Made by a program: the position numbers and the translations under genes | Part shown: piece by piece, positions 657 through 37,149 of the stretch | How the letters are laid out: every line of letters starts with the position of its first letter | How positions within the stretch are numbered: position 1 is the first letter of the stretch | Virus record (IMG/VR): IMGVR_UViG_3300015371_000102 | Location: 1-37,473 of that record | DNA: 37,473 bases | Strand: one strand, 5' to 3' | Origin: a virus | Notes under the pieces: model-generated | Database searches by the model: none | What the model saw: only the letters and a program-made list of their open reading frames with translations | What the model was told of the DNA's origin: nothing

Positions 657-693
657 TCACGTGTTCAGTATGTGGGACAGGCTGAGGGCATGA

Positions 694-732
694 GAAAACC
701 CCGCTGTCATGATTGGGGGCAGCGGGGTTTTC
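694..732 (-). terminator. Rho-independent-like terminator
   Basis: A perfect 13-bp inverted repeat, GAAAACCCCGCTG (694-706) and CAGCGGGGTTTTC (720-732), has a 13-nt loop. The arms end in A4/T4, so it can act in both directions. It sits 24 nt beyond the stop of the leftward gene 757-1110 and before the next promoter. Confidence 0.8.
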
Positions 733-756
733 AGCGAACCGGGGATGGCTCAGCCT

Positions 757-4609: not shown

Positions 4610-5485
4610 ATGGACGCCACAAAACCGGGTAGTCGGCGGAAAATATTGGGAATTGTCGCCTTTCTAGCGGTTTTGGCGGCCCTTTTAGCTGGCTCGGTGC
4701 TGTTTTGGACCGAGTTGAAGGCTGACGGGGCGCCGGTCCTGAAGGCCCCGGCGCCCCGTCTCATCGCCGGACACCGCGGCGCGACCCGCGGCGTCGACGA
4801 AAACACGATTCCGGCGTTCTCGTATGCGCTGCCGTACGCCGACGTCCTCGAAATGGATGTGCGGCTCACAAGCGACAAGAAAATGGTGATCATGCACGAT
4901 GCCACTCTTGATCGGACTACAAACTGCGCTGGACGAGTATCTAGCCGAACTCTCGCGTACATCAAGGCGTGTCGGACCCCTCGAGGAAGCCATCCTCCGT
5001 CGCTGCGCCAGTTTCTCGCCTGGGCAGACGCCCAAACCAAAACCGCCGCCCTCCAGCTCGAGCTGAAAGGCGCCTGGACCCAAGACCAAGTCCAAAGATT
5101 CGTCAACGAAGTCGCCTCATATGATCTTGAGGCAGCCGCATCATCATTCTCCACAGCGAATTTGGCGAAGGTTGAACGGGCCAACGACTCGCTGCCCGAC
5201 GAAACCGCCGGCCGGCACCTCGACACGGTGCTCATCGAAGGCGGAGATCCGACGATGCCGCCCTTTCTCATCTGCGACAGCTACGCCGGCTACGCCAACT
5301 CGATCTCCTACCTCAAAAAGACCTACGTCGACGCACTGCAGCAGGTGTGCAACCCGCCCACCTATGCCGCCGTCTACGGGTCGATAGACAGCGACCCCGA
5401 CTACCAGACGGCGTACGACACAACCGCCGACATGTGGATCGTCGAGGACGCCAAAGACGCCCGGAGGTGGCTAAACAGCCGATGA
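4610..5485 (+). CDS. Membrane-anchored glycerophosphodiester phosphodiesterase
   Basis: This encodes 291 residues from the ATG at 4610 with GGGGG upstream. A hydrophobic anchor spans about residues 12-33 after a Lys/Arg-rich start, so the enzyme should face outside the membrane. The GDPD family signature is complete in the first half: HRG (55-57), ENT (64-66), EMD (81-83) and HD (96-97) followed by LDRTT, then LELK at about 150-153. GDPD enzymes hydrolyse glycerophosphodiesters, metal-dependently, to glycerol-3-phosphate plus an alcohol. Total length is near the usual 240-300. In a phage, an outward-facing GDPD could act on glycerol-phosphate wall polymers or lipid-derived diesters; that role is inferred. 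Confidence 0.88.
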   Translation: MDATKPGSRRKILGIVAFLAVLAALLAGSVLFWTELKADGAPVLKAPAPRLIAGHRGATRGVDENTIPAFSYALPYADVLEMDVRLTSDKKMVIMHDATLDRTTNCAGRVSSRTLAYIKACRTPRGSHPPSLRQFLAWADAQTKTAALQLELKGAWTQDQVQRFVNEVASYDLEAAASSFSTANLAKVERANDSLPDETAGRHLDTVLIEGGDPTMPPFLICDSYAGYANSISYLKKTYVDALQQVCNPPTYAAVYGSIDSDPDYQTAYDTTADMWIVEDAKDARRWLNSR

Positions 5486-13820: not shown

Positions 13821-13836
13821 TGTTATGGTTATTCAC

Positions 13837-14487
13837 ATGCCGCGGCTCCTAGATCTGTTCTGCGGCGCAGGCGGCGCCGCCATGGGATACCACCGAGCAG
13901 GCTTCGACGTGGTCGGTGTGGACATCAATCCGCAGCCGAACTATCCGTTCGAGTTCCACCAGGCCGACGCCATGACCTACCCGCTCGACGGCTTCGACGC
14001 CGTCTGCGCATCGCCGCCATGCCAGCGATACAGCGGCATGAGCGCCTGCCGACCTGGCCTGTCGGACGATTATCCCGATCTTGTGGAAGCGACTCGAGCT
14101 CGGCTGCAGGCCTCGGGTCTGCCCTGGATCATCGAGAACGTGCCAGGCTCCCCAGTGCTCAAGCACTCCGGCCTGTTCGATTTGCACGGCATCGAACTGT
14201 GCGGGCACATGTTCGGACTGGAGCTCTACCGCCACCGCCACTTCGAGTCCTCCGTGCATCTGTGGCAGCCTGACCATCCCCGTCACCTTGTGCCAGGAGC
14301 CAAGGCCGGGCACTGGCGACCCGGCGAGATCATCTCCGTCTCCGGCAACTGCTCGCCTATCGCCCTGGCAAGATCAGCTATGGGCATTGACTGGATGAAC
14401 AGAAGCGAGCTGTCTGAGGCCATCCCGCCCGCTTACACCGAGTACATCGGGGCCCAGCTTCTTGAGCATATGGCGGTGGCGGCATGA
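13837..14487 (+). CDS. DNA (cytosine-5) methyltransferase, compact
   Basis: This encodes 216 residues from the ATG at 13837; the ATG at 13825 is an alternative. C5-MTase motifs in order: motif I DLFCGAGG (6-13), motif II VVGVDINP (25-32), motif IV ASPPCQRYS with catalytic Cys62, ENVPG (100-104), and motif X-like AIPPAYTEYIG (195-205). Canonical enzymes are 300-400 residues, so the target-recognition region (about 115-165) is very short and specificity cannot be read. It likely methylates phage DNA against host restriction. It is inserted between connector genes and coupled by ATGA to the next, and TATGGT 7 nt before the ATG may be its own -10. Confidence 0.87.
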   Translation: MPRLLDLFCGAGGAAMGYHRAGFDVVGVDINPQPNYPFEFHQADAMTYPLDGFDAVCASPPCQRYSGMSACRPGLSDDYPDLVEATRARLQASGLPWIIENVPGSPVLKHSGLFDLHGIELCGHMFGLELYRHRHFESSVHLWQPDHPRHLVPGAKAGHWRPGEIISVSGNCSPIALARSAMGIDWMNRSELSEAIPPAYTEYIGAQLLEHMAVAA

Positions 14488-28277: not shown

Positions 28278-28459
28278 TTCCCGCCGTTCTTTCGGTGCTG
28301 CCCGGCAGCGGCGTGAGCCTCAACACGTCCCTCTAACGCAAGGATCCGCTCGAACAAATCCCGCTGCTTCTCATGCACCTGCTCCAACTCGGTCTGCAAC
28401 TCATCCTCGAGCCCGTCGAGCCGGACTAACTCGGCCCTCATCTCCGCTAGCTCAGACAC
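28274..28459 (-). CDS. Small coiled-coil protein
   Basis: This encodes 61 residues from a GTG at 28459 with GGAGGAA directly upstream; longer in-frame starts overlap the glycosyltransferase far too deeply. It is one long heptad helix (LAEMRAELVRLDGLEDELQT) with a basic tail. Lying between two glycosyltransferases, it could help them associate, but that is speculation. Confidence 0.6.
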   Translation of the reverse strand: MSELAEMRAELVRLDGLEDELQTELEQVHEKQRDLFERILALEGRVEAHAAAGQHRKNGGK

Positions 28460-29517
28460 GCTTCCTCCCACGCCACCCCTAGATAGTCCTGCAAAGTGTT
28501 GTCCGATGCCCGCTCCCGAGCCTCCATGCCCATGCTGCGACGCAGCGCCGCATCCTGAATCAACGCCCCCAAGTATCGGCCCCACTCATGCTGAGCGTTG
28601 TTCCTCACCAAGAACCCGTTGACGCCATGGTCGATCCACTCCCGGTACGGCCGGATCGCCGACGCGATCAACGGGATGCCGAGGAACCCTGCCTCCAACG
28701 CTTTTGTCGGGAACTTCGCCTCCGTGAACAGGGTCGACCGGTACGGCGCCAACAGCACGTCGATGCGGGACAGCTCCCGCAGATAGTCCTCTGGCCGGTG
28801 CAGGAACTCATAAGCCTTGGCGTGGCCTCTCCGCAGCCGGAAGCCGTGCGCGGTGACGAACGAAGCGGGGGCGCCGATGAACTGTATGAACACCCGCCGG
28901 CCGTACCCGTCCTTAGCGGCTTTGTTGATCACGTCTTTGATCATCGGCAGCCATTGCGCCGTGTTTTCGGTGCCTGCCCAGCCGACCGTCAGCAGCTCCG
29001 GGTCGTAGTCCCGGTCGAGGCCGAGGACGTCGGCGCCTAACGCGTTCTCCACGACTTTGATGTTGGGATGCAGGGTCTCTTTGTAGATGTTCTCGGCGAG
29101 CCCTTCGGAGCAGACGGTGACGACGTCGGCAAGCTCGATGGATTCCCGCAGGAACGGCAGGAAGCCGCCCTCCTGTATCGGTTTGCCGTCTTGGATGCCG
29201 TTCACCCACCATTGGTAGGCGGTCCGGTTTTCTTTGTCGATGTGGAAGTAGTCGTCGTCAAGATCAAGTACGAGGCGTTTGCCGTCTTCTTTGAGTTGCC
29301 GCCAGCCGGGCATGGCGCCGGGGTGTGCGACGCGGGAGCCGATGATCACATCGGCTTGGTGAATGTCGGCGAGGTTGCGGGATGCGCCGACCGCGTGTGG
29401 TCTGCCGTACGGGTTGTGTTCTTTGGGGCGGAGCCAGGAGATTGCGCGGGCGGGGAGGAGGGCTCGGTAGTTGGAGGAGCCGTCGTTGCCGGCTGCCCAG
29501 AAACCGAACTTAGGCAC
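28447..29517 (-). CDS. Glycosyltransferase, GT-B (GT4-like)
   Basis: This encodes 356 residues from a GTG overlapping the upstream stop. It has the two-domain layout of GT-B enzymes: an N-terminal domain with RLVLDLDDDYFHID and ADVVTVCSEGLAENI, then a C-terminal donor-binding domain with LLTVGWAGTENTAQWLPMIK and FPTKALEAGFLGIPLIASAI followed by GVNGFLV. The last stretch is the E-x7-E-like donor site of GT4 enzymes. Related phage and actinobacterial enzymes modify surface glycans or virion proteins. Confidence 0.83.
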   Translation of the reverse strand: MPKFGFWAAGNDGSSNYRALLPARAISWLRPKEHNPYGRPHAVGASRNLADIHQADVIIGSRVAHPGAMPGWRQLKEDGKRLVLDLDDDYFHIDKENRTAYQWWVNGIQDGKPIQEGGFLPFLRESIELADVVTVCSEGLAENIYKETLHPNIKVVENALGADVLGLDRDYDPELLTVGWAGTENTAQWLPMIKDVINKAAKDGYGRRVFIQFIGAPASFVTAHGFRLRRGHAKAYEFLHRPEDYLRELSRIDVLLAPYRSTLFTEAKFPTKALEAGFLGIPLIASAIRPYREWIDHGVNGFLVRNNAQHEWGRYLGALIQDAALRRSMGMEARERASDNTLQDYLGVAWEEACLS

Positions 29518-29791
29518 CGACGATGAGGCGTTTGAAGGCGCCGAGGATGCACGAGTTCACGTCCTCCAACGCGAGCCGGTCGCCGTCGCCTTCGTCGCCA
29601 TCGGGGTAGGCCGGGGTTTCGTGGACGATGTCGTCGGCCACGATGATTTGGCCGACCCAGCCGTCTTTCATTTGGACGGCGCGGGTCTCGATCAGCTTCT
29701 TGGCGTCCAGCTCCTGCGGCCTGGAGCCTTTCTCGGCCGGAACGACGAGCCCGGTGTAGCTCCAGGTGGTGCCGGTGACTGTGGTTGCCAT
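29510..29791 (-). CDS. Hypothetical protein of the glycosylation operon
   Basis: This encodes 93 residues from the ATG at 29791 with AAGG seven nt upstream, just after the epimerase stop. The N-terminus is beta-like and the C-terminus helical; the middle (residues 55-75) is Asp/Glu/Gly-rich. The SD region coincides with an 18-bp TTACACT box in the opposite direction. No family was recognised. Confidence 0.6.
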   Translation of the reverse strand: MATTVTGTTWSYTGLVVPAEKGSRPQELDAKKLIETRAVQMKDGWVGQIIVADDIVHETPAYPDGDEGDGDRLALEDVNSCILGAFKRLIVGA

Positions 29792-29807
29792 GTTATGACC
29801 TTACACT
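29790..29807 (+). promoter_or_regulatory. 18-bp TTACACT box, antisense to the operon (site B)
   Basis: ATGTTATGACCTTACACT is read rightward, opposite to the surrounding genes, and differs from site A at one base. It lies exactly at a gene junction. It could be a repressor site that blocks elongation or an antisense promoter. Part of the match overlaps the SD and stop codon of the leftward genes. Confidence 0.4.
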
Positions 29808-30758
29808 TACCGGCGCGGCCTTCAGGTAGCCGGGCAGCCAGTTCTCCTTAAACCAGATGACCGTTGCGGCAATGCCCTTCTCGAACGAAATCAACGTCGA
29901 CGGATTCATGCCGATCTGCTTCAGCGTGTCCGGGTCCACGCTCACCCGATCACCCGGCGTCTCACCCGGCCGCATCGGCACATGCACCACGGGCGGCTGC
30001 TCCGGCCCGCCGAACACCCTGACGGTGTGACGCACCAGATCAGCCACAGCGTTCACCGTCAAAGAGTCCTTTTCGTACGGGCCGACACCAACCGGCTCCG
30101 CCAGCACGTCACCAAGACGTGCGATCTCCAAAGCGTCCGCGAGGGCGCGGGCCACGTCACGTACATACACCATGTCGGAGATCTGCTCGCCGTCGCCGTA
30201 GACCTCGATCGGCTGCCCGAGCAGCGCACGGCACACGAACGCGGGGGTGATCTTGCGGACCTTCGCCGGGCCGAACGGCGGCGCCACCGACTGCCGGGGG
30301 CCGTAGGCGTTGACGCAGCGGACCCGGTTGATCCGTGCGCCGTTGTACAGGTTGAACATTTCGCAGAACCGGCCGACCGTCGACTTCGAGATCGAGTACG
30401 TGTTCGGCATCCAATAGTTGCCGACCTCAATGTTGACGCCGGGGATGTCGTTTTCGTCGCATGTGGCCAGGAAGTTCAGCCCGCCCTCAATGTTGGTGCG
30501 CGCCGCCGGCAGCGGGTTCTTGATCGTCTCTTGGGTGCCGAGGCATGCGGCGAGGTTGATGATGCCGTCGACGTGTTTGCCGAGCTCGGACATGGCGACC
30601 GGATCGGTCACGTCGCCGAGGAACAGCTCCACACCGTCGCGGGCTTCGTTGCTGCGGCGGCGGCGGTCGAAGATGACTGGGGTGTGTCCGCGGTGCAGCA
30701 GTTCATCGACGACATGGCCGCCGATGAATCCGGCGCCGCCGGTTATCCCGATCTTCAC
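29793..30758 (-). CDS. NAD-dependent nucleotide-sugar epimerase/dehydratase
   Basis: This encodes 321 residues, an extended short-chain dehydrogenase. The Rossmann motif TGGAGFIG gives G7-x2-G10-x2-G13, D-V-T-D lies near 49-52, and the catalytic YSISK gives Tyr121 and Lys125. Then comes NAYGPRQ and a substrate domain with VYGDGEQISDMVYVRDVARA, both common in UDP-glucose 4-epimerase-like enzymes. Length matches the family (310-340). It probably makes the sugar donor for the two glycosyltransferases downstream. Which sugar cannot be told. Confidence 0.87.
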   Translation of the reverse strand: MKIGITGGAGFIGGHVVDELLHRGHTPVIFDRRRRSNEARDGVELFLGDVTDPVAMSELGKHVDGIINLAACLGTQETIKNPLPAARTNIEGGLNFLATCDENDIPGVNIEVGNYWMPNTYSISKSTVGRFCEMFNLYNGARINRVRCVNAYGPRQSVAPPFGPAKVRKITPAFVCRALLGQPIEVYGDGEQISDMVYVRDVARALADALEIARLGDVLAEPVGVGPYEKDSLTVNAVADLVRHTVRVFGGPEQPPVVHVPMRPGETPGDRVSVDPDTLKQIGMNPSTLISFEKGIAATVIWFKENWLPGYLKAAPVSVRS

Positions 30759-31212: not shown

Positions 31213-32802
31213 TTAGCGAGTCTGTGTCAGATGCAACGGCACATCACCCGGCTTCGCGCCGGGCATAGCGATCGGCCTCCGTTGCGTCCGTGGACGGTGA
31301 TCACGTTGCGGCGGCGCCTCGCCGCGGGTCCGCTCAAAAGCTTCGGGGATCAGCTTCCGCAGATCCCAAATCTCCTCATCGGAAACGAACGAGCCACGCA
31401 GCCGCGGATAACCAGGGCGACGCTTCCAACCGATCGCCTGGTCGCCGTCTTGATCATCATCCTCAGGTTCAGGGATGTGCAAAAGGTGCGGCGCAATGTC
31501 ATACATTTCAACATCATCTTTGTCGAACAGCATGTAGGTCTCCGACTTGTACTCCACCGCCAAACAATCCAATGCGGTGAAGCCGTCCCGCAGCTGCCCG
31601 AGCACGTCCTTGTGGCCCTGCTGAGTGCCGGCAACCAGCGAATGCCCGCACGCCAAACCGATCTGCTGGATCAAAAGCAGGCAGGAGATGATCTCCGCCG
31701 CGGCCTCCCGGTCGTCGTAGGACGGGTTCATCACCGACTTCAGCTCATCAACCACATGCACCGTCCAGCGGCGCTCCTCGGTCAGCACGTCCAGCTTCCG
31801 TTTGATGCCGGAAGCATCGGTGGCTTGGGAGGTTTCGATCGCCATGTTGTCGGCCTGCTCCAGCATCCGGGTCACCTCGTTACGCAGCAGCTTTGCTGAG
31901 TCCCGCAGATTGTCGGAGTACCAGCCGCCGGCCTCGAAGATCGGCCGGCCGGCCTGCAGCTCCATGCCCCGCTTCCAGTCATGCACGCAGTACCGCAGCC
32001 GCTTCGCCTGCACCATCGGCACCGACATGCGAACCACCGGCCAAATCCGTGAGCTTGACTTGCCGGCCCGCGACTTACCGACCACCAACCAATGCCTTTG
32101 CGTCAAATCGATGCCGGCCGGGGAACCGTTCTCATAAATCCCGTACAACATGTTGCGTTGGAACCAGCGGTACCAATCCCCATCCGCCGGAGGCTCCGGG
32201 ATCGGGAACGGCGCCGGGTTCATCGACTTCAACGGATCGTCATGCCACAGCCAAAGATCCACCACGTTGTTGCGGTTCGGATGCGGCACCGCCCGGCAAC
32301 CCAGCACGTTCAGCGTCGACGCGATCTCCTTGCGCTTCCGCACATAATGCTCGACCTTCTGCATCGGCGGCATGATCACCGGCAGCGTGTCGACGTAGAT
32401 CGTGGAGGTGAACTCCGGCAGCTGCACTTTCGGCGGCTTATCCGGGTAGCTCGGATCGGTGTACTTCACCTGCACCTCCCGCCACCGCCGCCAATAACGC
32501 CGGTAGAACCGGAACCGCAGATACCACCACGAAATGAAACCCTGCCGATCCGTGACGAACCATCCCATCAACGCCAGCAACGGCCAGCAAGCCACCAGGA
32601 CGGCCCAGCCCCAGCCGTACGTCACCCCCGCCATCACCACAAGAAAGCCGGTCACCACAGCCAGCAGCCGGTAGATGTTCTTCAGCAGCAGCCACAAGCC
32701 GACGCCGGCAGCCCAAAAAATCATCATCAGCACGTAGCCGATCTGCACCAACGCGTTCTGCGACACCTTCGCATTCAGCCGCCGTTGCACCTGCTCCCGC
32801 AT
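31213..32802 (-). CDS. FtsK/TraB-like membrane DNA translocase
   Basis: This encodes 529 residues from the ATG at 32802; a GTG at 32805 is equally possible. Three transmembrane helices lie at about 17-40, 44-63 and 65-83, followed by a basic RFRFYRRYWRRW stretch. The FtsK/SpoIIIE ATPase domain has Walker A GKSRAGKSS (242-250), HDWKRGMELQ (274-283) and Walker B TVHVVDEL (347-354). No gamma domain is evident. Membrane-bound translocases of this type move double-stranded DNA in Streptomyces conjugation (TraB). In a phage its role could be DNA transfer, genome maintenance or packaging; none is shown by the sequence. Confidence 0.85.
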   Translation of the reverse strand: MREQVQRRLNAKVSQNALVQIGYVLMMIFWAAGVGLWLLLKNIYRLLAVVTGFLVVMAGVTYGWGWAVLVACWPLLALMGWFVTDRQGFISWWYLRFRFYRRYWRRWREVQVKYTDPSYPDKPPKVQLPEFTSTIYVDTLPVIMPPMQKVEHYVRKRKEIASTLNVLGCRAVPHPNRNNVVDLWLWHDDPLKSMNPAPFPIPEPPADGDWYRWFQRNMLYGIYENGSPAGIDLTQRHWLVVGKSRAGKSSSRIWPVVRMSVPMVQAKRLRYCVHDWKRGMELQAGRPIFEAGGWYSDNLRDSAKLLRNEVTRMLEQADNMAIETSQATDASGIKRKLDVLTEERRWTVHVVDELKSVMNPSYDDREAAAEIISCLLLIQQIGLACGHSLVAGTQQGHKDVLGQLRDGFTALDCLAVEYKSETYMLFDKDDVEMYDIAPHLLHIPEPEDDDQDGDQAIGWKRRPGYPRLRGSFVSDEEIWDLRKLIPEAFERTRGEAPPQRDHRPRTQRRPIAMPGAKPGDVPLHLTQTR

Positions 32803-33146
32803 CACCAACCACCCGGCCTGAAACCGTTGTCGTTCGGGTAGGCGTCCTCCTCGTACGGAATCTCAATGCCGGAGTCATCCCACGCCCGAGCCTGCATACC
32901 CAGCAGGGAACCCAACGCGTTCGGCGTCTCAATCGTCGCCGGCACACCCGGCCCCAACCTCGACGGGCCAAACCCCGACGCCTGCAGCTCCGCATCCCGC
33001 TCCGCCCACTGCTGCAGATACGCCTGATTGCTGACCAGCGAAGAATCCCACGCCTCAAAGTCATCCTTGAGCCCGGCGTGCTCATCATCACCGACGCTCA
33101 TCGCAACCCGAAACGCCGTCAAAAACCCGCCAGCCCCATCAACCAT
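32802..33146 (-). CDS. Hypothetical acidic protein upstream of the translocase, leaderless
   Basis: This encodes 114 residues from the ATG at 33146, chosen because TACACT lies 6 nt upstream. It is acidic with a central helix (LKDDFEAWDSSLVSNQAYLQ) and a Gly/Pro-rich second half. It overlaps the translocase start (TGATG), so the two are probably made together and may interact. Confidence 0.65.
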   Translation of the reverse strand: MVDGAGGFLTAFRVAMSVGDDEHAGLKDDFEAWDSSLVSNQAYLQQWAERDAELQASGFGPSRLGPGVPATIETPNALGSLLGMQARAWDDSGIEIPYEEDAYPNDNGFRPGGW

Positions 33147-34334: not shown

Positions 34335-34352
34335 ACGTTATAGGTTTACACT
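34335..34352 (+). promoter_or_regulatory. 18-bp TTACACT box between convergent genes (site E)
   Basis: ATAGGTTTACACT forms the 3' part of the box, preceded by ACGTT. No start codon follows at leaderless spacing; transcription from it would be antisense to the Cys-rich gene and run toward the origin-like repeats. A repressor or roadblock role is the alternative. Confidence 0.45.
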
Positions 34353-34789
34353 TATTTCGCCGGTTCCCAATCGTAGCCAGGGCTGACCCAATGGGTTTTG
34401 ATCGGGGTGACGGCTAGCTCGAAATGATGGAGGCCGCCCGCGCACTCCTCAATGTCGCCCTCGTTGAGCCAGGTGCAGATGTTGCAGTCGCTGGGCTTGT
34501 CGTGGCGGTGCTTCTCCATGACGTGAGAGCCGAGGCCGCCTAGAGGTATCTCGACTTCGTGAAAGATGCCCAGGTCGTCTCGCTGTTCGTCCCACTCTTC
34601 GCATTGACAGCTGGGCATCATTCGGCACGCCGCATCGGCGGGTGCGTTGCAGCGCGCCGTCGCGCGAACGATCGGAGTGTCAAAGGTCCAAACAATCTCG
34701 TGGTCAGCCGCCGTCTCGGGAGGCTTCGTTGGATGGACATCGTTTTTCGCTTCGCGCGCGCGGTCTGTGGATAACTTACGAGTCTCCAT
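34352..34789 (-). CDS. Cys/His-rich hypothetical protein
   Basis: This encodes 145 residues from the ATG at 34789. At least seven Cys and several His (CRMMPSCQCEEW, SDCNICTWLN, CAGGLHHFEL) suggest two zinc sites. The N-terminal codons include a perfect DnaA-box sequence. It is the last gene of the leftward replication-region operon, across the repeat region from the winged-helix gene. Function unknown. Confidence 0.65.
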   Translation of the reverse strand: METRKLSTDRAREAKNDVHPTKPPETAADHEIVWTFDTPIVRATARCNAPADAACRMMPSCQCEEWDEQRDDLGIFHEVEIPLGGLGSHVMEKHRHDKPSDCNICTWLNEGDIEECAGGLHHFELAVTPIKTHWVSPGYDWEPAK

Positions 34790-34981
34790 GGTCTTATAAC
34801 CCTTCTCTTAAGTCTGTAGTTCTCTTACTTCCTCTTATAGGGGGTCCTGAGGACCCCGCTACTTGGTCACTCAGAACCCCGCTACTTTTTCTAGCGGGGA
34901 TGTCAGGACCCCGCTGCAGCGGGGATGTCAGGACCCCGCTAACGGATGATGAATCCAGAGTTATCCACAGGGTTATCCACA
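34766..34981. other. Candidate replication origin
   Basis: Three perfect DnaA boxes, TTATCCACA, lie at 34961-34969, 34973-34981 and, inverted, 34766-34774. Between them are an A+T-rich stretch (34792-34840), four copies of GRACCCCGCT (34851, 34874, 34906, 34931), a palindrome CCCCGCTGCAGCGGGG (34909-34924), a hairpin CCCCGCTA/TAGCGGGG (34877-34899) and a perfect 23-bp direct repeat (34893-34915 and 34918-34940). DnaA boxes plus iteron-like repeats and an A+T-rich segment next to a winged-helix gene are the classic parts of an iteron origin. Two boxes lie inside coding sequence, so part of the match could be coincidental. Confidence 0.55.
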
Positions 34982-35358
34982 GGCATGTCAAACCGTCTGG
35001 CAGGCCTCAAAAGACTCCCCAACGTCAACCGGTACTTGCTCGGCCGCTGCCCGGTGCCCCTCTCCAGCCTCTCGATAGCACCCGCTTTGATCAGCCGATT
35101 AATGCTCCGCTGAACCTTCTTCCGCTGCGTCTCCCACGACGCCGACCCATACTCCGGGACCGACCCATCCACACTGATCGTCATGATCAACGGCTCATAG
35201 CCAGCGAAGTACAAACAAGCCGGCGTACCACCTGCGGTGCGCGAATCGGGGTCGATAGCCATCAGCGCCATCCGGTTGATGATCAACCGGTCAACGTGGC
35301 TCGGTAGCAGGGCAAGCCAATAGGGGTGTCCGGCCTGCCAAGCGAGGCTGTAACCCAT
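34939..35358 (-). CDS. Winged-helix DNA-binding protein, possible replication initiator
   Basis: This encodes 139 residues from the ATG at 35358. Residues 22-40 (VDRLIINRMALMAIDPDSRT) and 78-112 (RKKVQRSINRLIKAGAIERL, then RPSKYRLTL) form a winged-helix pattern seen in small phage and plasmid initiators and in DnaD-like proteins. The C-terminal PVDNPVDN is encoded by the two DnaA boxes, so gene and origin overlap. Self-regulation by binding the iterons is plausible. It could instead be a plain transcription factor. Confidence 0.65.
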   Translation of the reverse strand: MGYSLAWQAGHPYWLALLPSHVDRLIINRMALMAIDPDSRTAGGTPACLYFAGYEPLIMTISVDGSVPEYGSASWETQRKKVQRSINRLIKAGAIERLERGTGQRPSKYRLTLGSLLRPARRFDMPVDNPVDNSGFIIR

Positions 35359-35470
35359 AGCTACCCATCAGTCCTTTCAATCCGTCAGGCCGATGCGCTA
35401 CCTTGGAACGCATCGGGTTGCGAGAGCCATTGGCCCAAAAGCAGTGGTCCTTTCTCTTCCGGTAGTGATG
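35359..35470 (-). promoter_or_regulatory. Leader of the winged-helix gene with possible leader peptide and hairpin
   Basis: Read leftward the 112-nt leader starts with the conserved motif and AAAGGA, then a TTG-started 17-codon frame (GQWLSQPDAFQGSASA after the start) that ends at a TGA shortly before the gene. A hairpin GATGCG/CGCATC (35392-35397 with 35409-35414) lies inside it. The arrangement resembles attenuation or translational coupling, but the short frame could be chance. Confidence 0.3.
35454..35467 (-). promoter_or_regulatory. Conserved leader motif (copy 3)
   Basis: Read leftward this is CACTACCGGAAGAG, followed by AAAGGA. Unlike the other copies it is about 100 nt from the annotated start, which is why a short leader frame is suspected. 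Confidence 0.5.
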
Positions 35471-35511: not shown

Positions 35512-36114
35512 CTAGGGCTGCCGCTCCAACACCTTGTTCAGGTGCGAGGTGACGCTGACACTAGCCGGGTCATCGGCGCCGCGCAGTGTTTGCCGATCGA
35601 AAAACACCGCCAGTCTTGGCTTGTCCATCCGGTACAGCCGACGCGCCAACGAAAGCCGATTCTCATAGCCGACGCGGCGTGCGACCACGACAGGATCCCT
35701 CGAGTCGACCATCGCTTTAGCCAGCTCCTGCAGCAGGGTTTCGCGGTTCATGAACACCCGCGAAGGGTCGTCGGTGAACCGGTATTCGTCCCACTCCTCG
35801 CGGGTCAACGGGCCTATCCACTCCAAGATCAGGAACAGCAGGTTCAGGGTGCCGCCGTTGCCGCCGCCCTTCTCGAACATGTAGATCGCCTGCTGATAGA
35901 TCCCGATCTGCTTCGCGGCTTCGACCACGCTCAGGCCACGTTCGGCCCGGATCGACCGGAACACAACCGGCAGACCTTCCAACAGGTCCAACAGCTCAGC
36001 AGCCGTGTCGTTCTTCGGCGTCGGGGCCAGCTTGAGGACGACCTTGTTGGCGCCCATGTGGCGGTAGCAGTCCTCGTGGCCGTACTGGCAAAGATGGGTG
36101 GTAGCGGTGCTCAT
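35512..36114 (-). CDS. Cro/CI-type helix-turn-helix regulator
   Basis: This encodes 200 residues from the ATG at 36114 with AAAGGA six nt upstream. A helix-turn-helix of the XRE class lies at about 52-82 (FRSIRAERGLSVVEAAKQIG then AIYMFEKG). The N-terminus has CQYGHEDCYRH, a possible metal site, and the C-terminal 110 residues are a mixed domain that could dimerise or sense a signal. It is a good candidate for the protein that binds GTCAA-N5-TTGAC, and possibly an immunity repressor. That pairing is inferred. Confidence 0.75.
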   Translation of the reverse strand: MSTATTHLCQYGHEDCYRHMGANKVVLKLAPTPKNDTAAELLDLLEGLPVVFRSIRAERGLSVVEAAKQIGIYQQAIYMFEKGGGNGGTLNLLFLILEWIGPLTREEWDEYRFTDDPSRVFMNRETLLQELAKAMVDSRDPVVVARRVGYENRLSLARRLYRMDKPRLAVFFDRQTLRGADDPASVSVTSHLNKVLERQP

Positions 36115-36127
36115 AGTGGTTCCTTTT

Positions 36128-36355
36128 CTAGGTGGTGTCGGGTGGCTCCTCGAGCCAGGTGAAGATCTTCATGAGCTGGCGGGTGCTCGTATTCTGCCCG
36201 GATTCGATGCGCTCCAAGGTGCTTAGCGTCACCCCGATTTGGCGTGCCGCTGGCCGCATCGACAGGCCGCGGCGTTTCCGTTCGGCGGTGACCTCGTGAG
36301 GCAGGGCCTCGAGGGATCGGCGTGCGATCTCTGCATAGCTGGGTGGCTTACTCAT
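36128..36355 (-). CDS. Small Cro/CI-type helix-turn-helix protein
   Basis: This encodes 75 residues from an ATG overlapping the ERF gene stop (TGATG). It is nearly all HTH: EVTAERKRRGLSMRPAARQI (21-40) then LSTLERIESGQ. Size matches Cro-like or excise-like proteins. It ends 13 nt before the larger regulator, and similar recognition-helix regions suggest the two could compete for related sites. Confidence 0.78.
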   Translation of the reverse strand: MSKPPSYAEIARRSLEALPHEVTAERKRRGLSMRPAARQIGVTLSTLERIESGQNTSTRQLMKIFTWLEEPPDTT

Positions 36356-37149
36356 CAGCCCTCCTCGGGTGGCGGCTCGGCCCTCGGAACCTCGCCGGTC
36401 TCAGGGTTGACGAACATCGGCCCGCCATCCAACATGCTCTGCAGGTTGTCGATCACCTGCCGCGCATCCCGCTTCGTCAAATCCTTCGTCGACGCGAGAT
36501 CCTTCTGCAGCCACCCGCTGAACATGGTCAGCACCTCATCACGCCCCGCCTCAGCCTTGTAGTCGATGCCGAGCTCGCCGAGCATCGCGAAGATCTTGTT
36601 CGACTGATCGTCCGTACGTGGTGCGTTAGGGCCGTACTGGGTGCGCTCCGTGCGCATGTCGGGCTGTTGCTGCGGTCGTCGCTGTTGCGTCTGTTGCGTC
36701 TGTTGCGGCCGTCCAGCACGTTGCGGTTCGGGTGCGCCCTGGGTGTCGGTGTCTTCCTCGGTCACAATCCCGGTTACCGCGCTGAAGCAATACCTACGCG
36801 CGTAGGTGATTGCGATCCCGATCTGCTTGATGTCCACGCTCCGCGGATCGGGCAACGGCCACGAGCCACACCTATCCTCGCCGCTCTCGTGCATCAGTGC
36901 GTACTCCAGGACGAAGCCGCGCTCACCCATAGTGGGTGACGCAGTGAACGACAAACCGTTCTGGGCAAGCAATGGATAAGCCTGCTCGGCGATCGACGCC
37001 AGGTCGGCGTACTTGTACTCGAAGCCGCGCTTCGTTGGGTCCTTCGGGTCGATTCGAGCCTTCTTGTCTTTGTGGATGACTCCGACCGCACCCTGGAATT
37101 TCGATAGGGCCGCAGCCATGTTCGCAGGCACGGTGATCTCTACGCTCAC
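36355..37149 (-). CDS. erf: ERF-family single-strand annealing protein
   Basis: This encodes 264 residues from a GTG coupled to the upstream stop (GTGA). The ERF domain fills about residues 5-140: a VGVIHKDKKARIDPKDPTKR stretch, FEYKYADLASIAEQAYPLLA, then QIGIAITYARRYCFSAVTGI with the usual E-DTD after it. A Gln/Arg-rich linker (about 143-175) leads to a second small helical domain. ERF proteins anneal complementary strands in phage recombination and end repair. No partner exonuclease or SSB is visible here. Confidence 0.9.
   Translation of the reverse strand: MSVEITVPANMAAALSKFQGAVGVIHKDKKARIDPKDPTKRGFEYKYADLASIAEQAYPLLAQNGLSFTASPTMGERGFVLEYALMHESGEDRCGSWPLPDPRSVDIKQIGIAITYARRYCFSAVTGIVTEEDTDTQGAPEPQRAGRPQQTQQTQQRRPQQQPDMRTERTQYGPNAPRTDDQSNKIFAMLGELGIDYKAEAGRDEVLTMFSGWLQKDLASTKDLTKRDARQVIDNLQSMLDGGPMFVNPETGEVPRAEPPPEEG

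Follow-up and report, generated by a model that had tools for sequence, protein, structure and literature searches.

Iteron plasmid origins combine DnaA boxes, iterons, an unwinding element and a winged-helix Rep protein (PMC4980987). In lambdoid phages, the origin lies in or beside the initiator gene (PMC7466680), and a location in or beside the initiator gene has been proposed for the origin of RepA-type mycobacterial prophages (PMC7157519). The Rep protein of the Streptomyces plasmid pWTY27 bound to an inverted repeat (PMC3583192), and TraB of the Streptomyces plasmid pSVH1, as described by Vogelmann et al. (cited in PMC3583192), reads 8-bp repeats via a C-terminal winged-helix domain.

The locus analyzed here lies in an IMG/VR viral record of class linear, possibly a fragment, whose 37,473 bp are referred to below as the window. 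Positions 34766-34981 together with the gene at 34939-35358 probably form a theta-type phage replication origin, composed of sites for host DnaA and for a phage initiator, because predicted DnaA sites, a repeat cluster and an easily melted segment occur beside a small gene of the DNA-binding type.

Arrangement of sites around the candidate origin

The features are listed by their window coordinates and strand.
31213-32808, minus, FtsK/SpoIIIE-like protein of 531 aa (PHROG 1358, 1e-5), judged to lie outside the element
34352-34789, minus, Cys/His-rich protein of 145 aa, function not assigned, downstream of the 139-aa gene and in the same direction
34766-34774, minus, predicted DnaA box, perfect TTATCCACA in opposed orientation, within the 5' end of the downstream ORF 34352-34789
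34791-34840, unstranded, A+T-rich tract, candidate DNA unwinding element and leader of the downstream gene
34841-34857, palindrome GGGGTCCT-G-AGGACCCC, adjoining the A+T-rich tract
34850-34860, minus, unit 1, AGCGGGGTCCT, GCGGGG core
34873-34883, minus, unit 2, AGCGGGGTTCT, GCGGGG core
34877-34899, hairpin CCCCGCTA-CTTTTTC-TAGCGGGG, within the strongly folding array
34893-34903, plus, unit 3, AGCGGGGATGT, GCGGGG core
34893-34915 and 34918-34940, 23-bp direct repeat AGCGGGGATGTCAGGACCCCGCT, two exact copies with inverted 7-bp arms in each
34905-34915, minus, unit 4, AGCGGGGTCCT, GCGGGG core
34918-34928, plus, unit 5, AGCGGGGATGT, GCGGGG core
34930-34940, minus, unit 6, AGCGGGGTCCT, overlapping the stop codon of the 139-aa gene
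34939-35358, minus, probable winged-helix DNA-binding protein of 139 aa, candidate replication initiator (sub-threshold matches, low-confidence model)
34961-34969, plus, predicted DnaA box, perfect TTATCCACA, within the 3' end of the 139-aa gene
34973-34981, plus, predicted DnaA box, perfect TTATCCACA, 12 bp from the 34961 box and within the 3' end of the 139-aa gene
35512-36355, two HTH genes near the array
36355-37149, minus, ERF-type single-strand annealing protein (Pfam ERF 2.4e-19, PHROG 155 1.3e-31)

An earlier note on this DNA had reported three perfect boxes flanking an A+T-rich tract and repeats, and this was confirmed. The box sequence was found three times in the entire window, each time inside the same 216 bp, and the boxes bracketed both the A+T-rich tract and the cluster of GCGGGG-core units. 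In dinucleotide shuffles the mean was 0.09 boxes per window, and three boxes in 250 bp were seen in 0 of 300, which excludes a chance origin of the three perfect boxes; such clustering is a trait of theta/iteron-type origins. The region does adjoin the gene beside which the boxes had been placed, but two of them lie inside the 139-aa ORF and the third inside the next ORF. The two plus-strand boxes encode PVDNPVDNS in the 139-aa ORF, its two PVDN motifs being the boxes read in frame. Given the codon usage of the larger ORFs of the window, the chance of PVDNPVDN being written with both boxes perfect was ~2e-4, mainly because CCT (11% of Pro) and GAT (30% of Asp) are disfavoured in the window. 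This use of disfavoured codons argues for selection acting on the boxes at the DNA level.

The repeats form a larger array than had been described. Four copies of GRACCCCGCT do exist, solely at this place in the window (34851, 34874, 34906 and 34931; shuffle mean 0.14), but the array really consists of six 11-bp units with a GCGGGG core in both orientations, four on the minus strand and, in addition, two AGCGGGGATGT units on the plus strand. Among 37 GCGGGG/CCCCGC cores in the window, 6 were located within 100 bp at the array, compared with at most 4 in any of 200 shuffles; repeated sites of a putative initiator type, another trait of theta/iteron-type origins, are present here at a density above that of all 200 shuffles. 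The 23-bp direct repeat of the earlier note proved to be exact. When folded as single-stranded DNA, the array reached -29.7 kcal/mol (z = -4.9), and 0 of 200 shuffles were as low. An adjacent A+T-rich element of the unwinding type, as found in theta/iteron-type origins, is present at 34791-34840, the second least stable 50-bp segment of the contig by nearest-neighbour energy; the tract is also the second most A+T-rich 60 bp of the window.

Adjoining genes and likely host

The 139-aa ORF ends in ...PVDNPVDNSGFIIR, with its stop codon within the last array unit. Its description as a winged-helix gene agreed with weak matches of the protein to AbiEi_4 (0.012), TrmB (0.02) and O-like initiators (0.07-0.08), but all of these were sub-threshold and the structural model was of low confidence. 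The AlphaFold2 single-sequence model had a mean pLDDT of 37 and was left out of the fold search; poor as it is, its long helix (73-92) followed by two strands (95-100 and 109-113) would fit a recognition helix and wing. The protein is likely a winged helix and would most likely be the phage initiator of this origin. No homologues were detected by tblastn in phages and plasmids, nor in viral contigs or in 396 genomes sampled from the phylum of a Nocardia MAG; the sole match in these genomes lay in an unrelated large protein and was rejected.

Recognised phage genes in the window encode capsid, tail-tube, tape-measure and ERF proteins. The ERF-type gene is located upstream of the candidate origin on the same strand and provides a DNA-metabolism context. 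Among the ORFs scanned in the window, no terminase, portal, integrase or par genes were recognised; genes for a helicase loader, a primase or a replicative helicase were likewise not recognised in the window. Its GC skew showed no clear switch and was confounded by gene strand. Genes for a glycosyltransferase and a nucleotide-sugar epimerase (28447-30758) are possibly involved in surface-sugar modification, and glycerophosphodiester phosphodiesterase-like and DNA methyltransferase-like genes were found amid phage genes at 4610-5485 and 13825-14487. The tape-measure protein is similar to those of Streptomyces and Propionibacterium phages, though also to those of Lactobacillus and Lactococcus phages, and relatives of the FtsK-like gene exist in actinobacterial genomes and plasmids. 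Because of these FtsK-like relatives and the tape-measure resemblance, the host is likely an actinobacterium. To our knowledge, few replication origins have been mapped among phages of actinobacteria.

Similar box pairs and repeat arrays in other viral contigs

At least 120 stretches with the 21-mer box pair were found in 2.9 million viral contigs (IMG/VR), and tandem boxes are therefore common in phages. The exact 26-mer, comprising the box pair and its flanks, was present in just 16 contigs of this 2.9-million-contig collection. It was located in the 3' part of a winged-helix gene in 7 of the 16 (L020, L022, L027, L068, L168, L175 and L067), two of which, L022 and L068, are identical at the box-pair locus. 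Six of the seven genes belong to one type, called L020 here, and encode proteins of 114-115 aa ending in PVDNPVDNS plus four residues, while L067 encodes a different protein. The L020 protein matched replication-initiation PHROGs (7.8e-18) and actinophage proteins annotated as 'RepA-like replication initiator' or 'helix-turn-helix'; the L067 protein matched HTH_36 (6.9e-9) and O-like/replication-initiation PHROGs. With a second-pattern scan included, 18 distinct L020-type genes had 1-3 boxes, placed at their 3' end or directly behind it and, where in tandem, mostly 12 or 21 bp apart; these loci were found by searching for boxes, and their box-carrying share is a biased rate. Behind the boxes followed a conserved G+C-rich inverted repeat and then an A+T-rich tract of the kind CTAAGGACTATAAGACTAAAGACTAAAAG. 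No boxes were found near the named relatives of L020 initiators (REQ2, Clawz, AWGoat and Attoomi).

The window matches the L020-type layout, in which the box pair sits within the 3' end of the gene, with G+C-rich inverted repeats behind it and then an A+T-rich tract. Homology between the 139-aa protein and the L020 initiators was undetectable (hhalign probability 2.4% over 26 columns, hmmsearch 1 bit), and the common layout would therefore be either convergent or too old to see. Common descent of the L020 repeat block and the window units is not claimed, since the likeness is weak: 38 of 1000 shuffles matched the block as well as the best place in the window did, and so did further places in the window. 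In bacterial genomes the 26-mer had 7 matches, none recognisably a prophage origin. A DNA-level search with 34700-35450 detected no relatives in plasmids and, in phages, only a 27-bp box match in two Microbacterium phages, Phabia (MW365950.1:338-364, a tandem box pair in the unannotated left end with 26 of 27 bp as in the window) and BabyDotz.

Other arrangements of boxes were also encountered. A viral contig of 35% GC carried twelve perfect TTATCCACA boxes in one orientation within 275 bp (L091:2921-3195), another carried eight (L042) and two carried six each (L100 and L101); these are possibly DnaA-dependent origins or DnaA titration arrays. In two viral contigs of 44% GC (L187:500-750 and L191), GGGGGGCGGGGGGCCTGA and an A+T-rich stretch come after four or five DnaA boxes, outside any long forward ORF, and this locus is probably another phage origin.

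The repeat units were traced separately by scanning viral contigs for pairs of GCGGGGTYCT units separated by 5-30 bp, which returned 30 viral loci, most of them inside ORFs. Six loci (L204, L206, L208, L215, L223 and L226; 68-70% GC) contained 9-12 GCGGGG cores in ~840 bp, and both unit types of the window, GCGGGGTTCT and GCGGGGATG, cluster in these six contigs. The second type, GCGGGGATG, was absent from the scan pattern and occurred in 6/6 clustered loci and 0/24 others. The L208 array is flanked by a DNA polymerase/primase gene (PHROG 19930) on one side and a DEAD-box helicase gene on the other, and a closely similar helicase gene is found beside the array in L204, L206 and L223. No DnaA boxes were detected within 400 bp of the six arrays. 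Arrays were delimited at L204:1890-2195, L206:7911-8223 and L208:4552-4854, with some units ~10-12 bp apart. That both unit types recur at another, different phage replication locus speaks for a function of the GCGGGG repeats in replication. The six arrays are candidate origins for a group of high-GC phages; the contigs may be interrelated and therefore represent few independent cases.

Proposed mechanism, alternatives and known origins

The origin proposed in the earlier note found support in the anatomy, in the DNA-level selection on the boxes and in the same layout beside recognisable initiator genes in independent viral contigs. Starting from the established part of the case, namely the sites, their non-random clustering, the low stability of the tract, the box selection and the recurrence of the layout elsewhere, we infer all protein binding and replication activity as follows. 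Host DnaA would bind all three boxes, the tandem pair at the 3' end of the initiator gene and the opposed one past the A+T-rich tract. The phage initiator, most likely the adjacent 139-aa winged-helix-like protein, would bind the six GCGGGG-core units and bend the DNA, and would probably repress its own operon. The A+T-rich tract at 34791-34840 would then melt, and DnaA and/or the initiator would load host DnaB helicase there. Iteron origins that have DnaA boxes operate in this manner (PMC4980987). The proposed origin might serve lytic growth or a plasmid-like prophage. With a few hundred bases and defined sites, this compact candidate is directly testable and could yield a new shuttle replicon. 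Small winged-helix genes whose 3' end holds two DnaA boxes in tandem provide a simple signature for finding origins in uncultured phages.

A broader reading, which we put forward tentatively and hold to be less probable than not, is that of a recurrent phage module: small winged-helix initiators, unrelated to one another, would each have host DnaA sites written into the 3' coding end of their gene, the boxes dictating the peptide PVDNPVDN, joined here by a GCGGGG array common to phages with different replication genes. If this were true, the GCGGGG array would be a mobile, initiator-independent origin part in phages.

Alternatively, the array could be an operator or leader through which the 139-aa protein or the HTH proteins (35512-36355) regulate the 145-aa gene, with the boxes serving DnaA-controlled transcription or titration instead of an origin. 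DnaA is able to act as a transcription factor, two HTH genes are near the array, and the array is directly upstream of the co-directional 145-aa gene, whose leader is the A+T-rich tract. However, a scan limited to the sigma-70 consensus found no promoter-like site at the array, tandem boxes in the 3' ends of initiator genes recur across unrelated contigs, and boxes combined with an unwinding-type tract are the usual anatomy of an origin. Self-regulation would in any case be compatible with origin function, and we regard the operator as an unlikely explanation.

The repeats had also been suggested to serve the FtsK-like protein, as a loading or recognition array like the clt repeats of TraB by which phage or plasmid DNA is moved. 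Such a gene is indeed present, with relatives 25-34% identical in the genome set drawn around the Nocardia MAG, and clt loci are built from short repeats, both direct and inverted (PMC3583192). The 531-aa protein, however, matched no Pfam family at E 0.1 and showed no detectable FtsK_gamma, wHTH or other C-terminal DNA-reading domain, so that the repeat-reading C-terminal winged-helix domain of TraB has no counterpart in it by Pfam. The array (34850-34940) is separated from the gene (31213-32808) by ~2 kb with other genes between, in contrast to TraB/clt loci, whose repeats adjoin the tra gene or lie inside it, and similar repeats lie beside other viral replication genes, as in L208 between the primase/polymerase and helicase genes. 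Around FtsK-like homologues, neither DnaA boxes nor a relative of the 139-aa gene was found. The suggestion leaves the boxes and the A+T-rich tract of the window unaccounted for. On the sequence evidence, it appears quite improbable. It is very improbable that the inverted repeats act as transcription terminators or RNA structures and that the three boxes are incidental: the strong folding (z -4.9) and a terminator-like GCGGGG hairpin with a T tract elsewhere in the window (691-735, between convergent ORFs) would agree with it, but no terminator-like site was found in the array, a terminator needs neither the direct-repeat register nor two unit types, and chance boxes are excluded (0/300 shuffles). 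The hairpin at 691-735, AAAACCCCGCTG...CAGCGGGGTTTT, is probably a bidirectional terminator, its GCGGGG core being common with the array by chance or otherwise.

The preferred theta-type origin resembles several described systems. With the iteron plasmid origins that have DnaA boxes (P1, F, RK2 and pSC101; PMC4980987), it has in common the boxes, repeated putative initiator sites, an unwinding tract and a putative winged-helix-like gene. Whereas their direct iterons measure 17-22 bp, the window units measure 11 bp, occur in both orientations and are nested in palindromes, and homology to Rep is undetectable in the window. In lambda-type origins, where the O gene has internal iterons and an A+T-rich region (PMC7466680), initiator gene and origin sites likewise overlap and the repeats adjoin the A+T-rich tract; in the window, however, the intragenic sites are DnaA boxes, the repeats start at the stop codon and are unrelated in sequence, and no P-type helicase loader was recognised. 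The RepA-like initiators of actinobacteriophages and extrachromosomal prophages (Miko, Rachaly and Jeeves, PMC7157519; HTH_36-type of REQ2, Clawz and AWGoat) are, as would be the 139-aa protein, phage-encoded HTH initiators, with an origin in or next to the gene proposed for Miko and its relatives. They are longer than the 139-aa protein and not detectably related to it; unlike in the window, no repeated motifs were reported near the repA genes of PMC7157519, and the named HTH_36-type relatives have no DnaA box nearby. The replicon of the Streptomyces theta plasmid pWTY27 (PMC3583192) resembles the locus in its direct repeats of 7-8 bp and inverted repeats beside rep genes, but its units, GTGGGAAC/TTCCCAC, differ from those of the window, as do RepA/RepB from the window genes. 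The L020-type contigs (L020, L022, L168, L175, L178 and others) likewise have a small winged-helix gene, as the 139-aa gene probably is, with an identical or similar box pair (PVDNPVDNS) at its end; behind it come G+C-rich inverted repeats, an A+T-rich tract and another gene. They differ in that they have a single repeat block in place of the six units and lack the opposed third box; in L020, the next gene is HNH-endonuclease/terminase-like. The type of origin is already known, and the details that set this well-supported candidate apart are the boxes in the 3' coding end of small winged-helix genes and the GCGGGG array at different phage replication loci.
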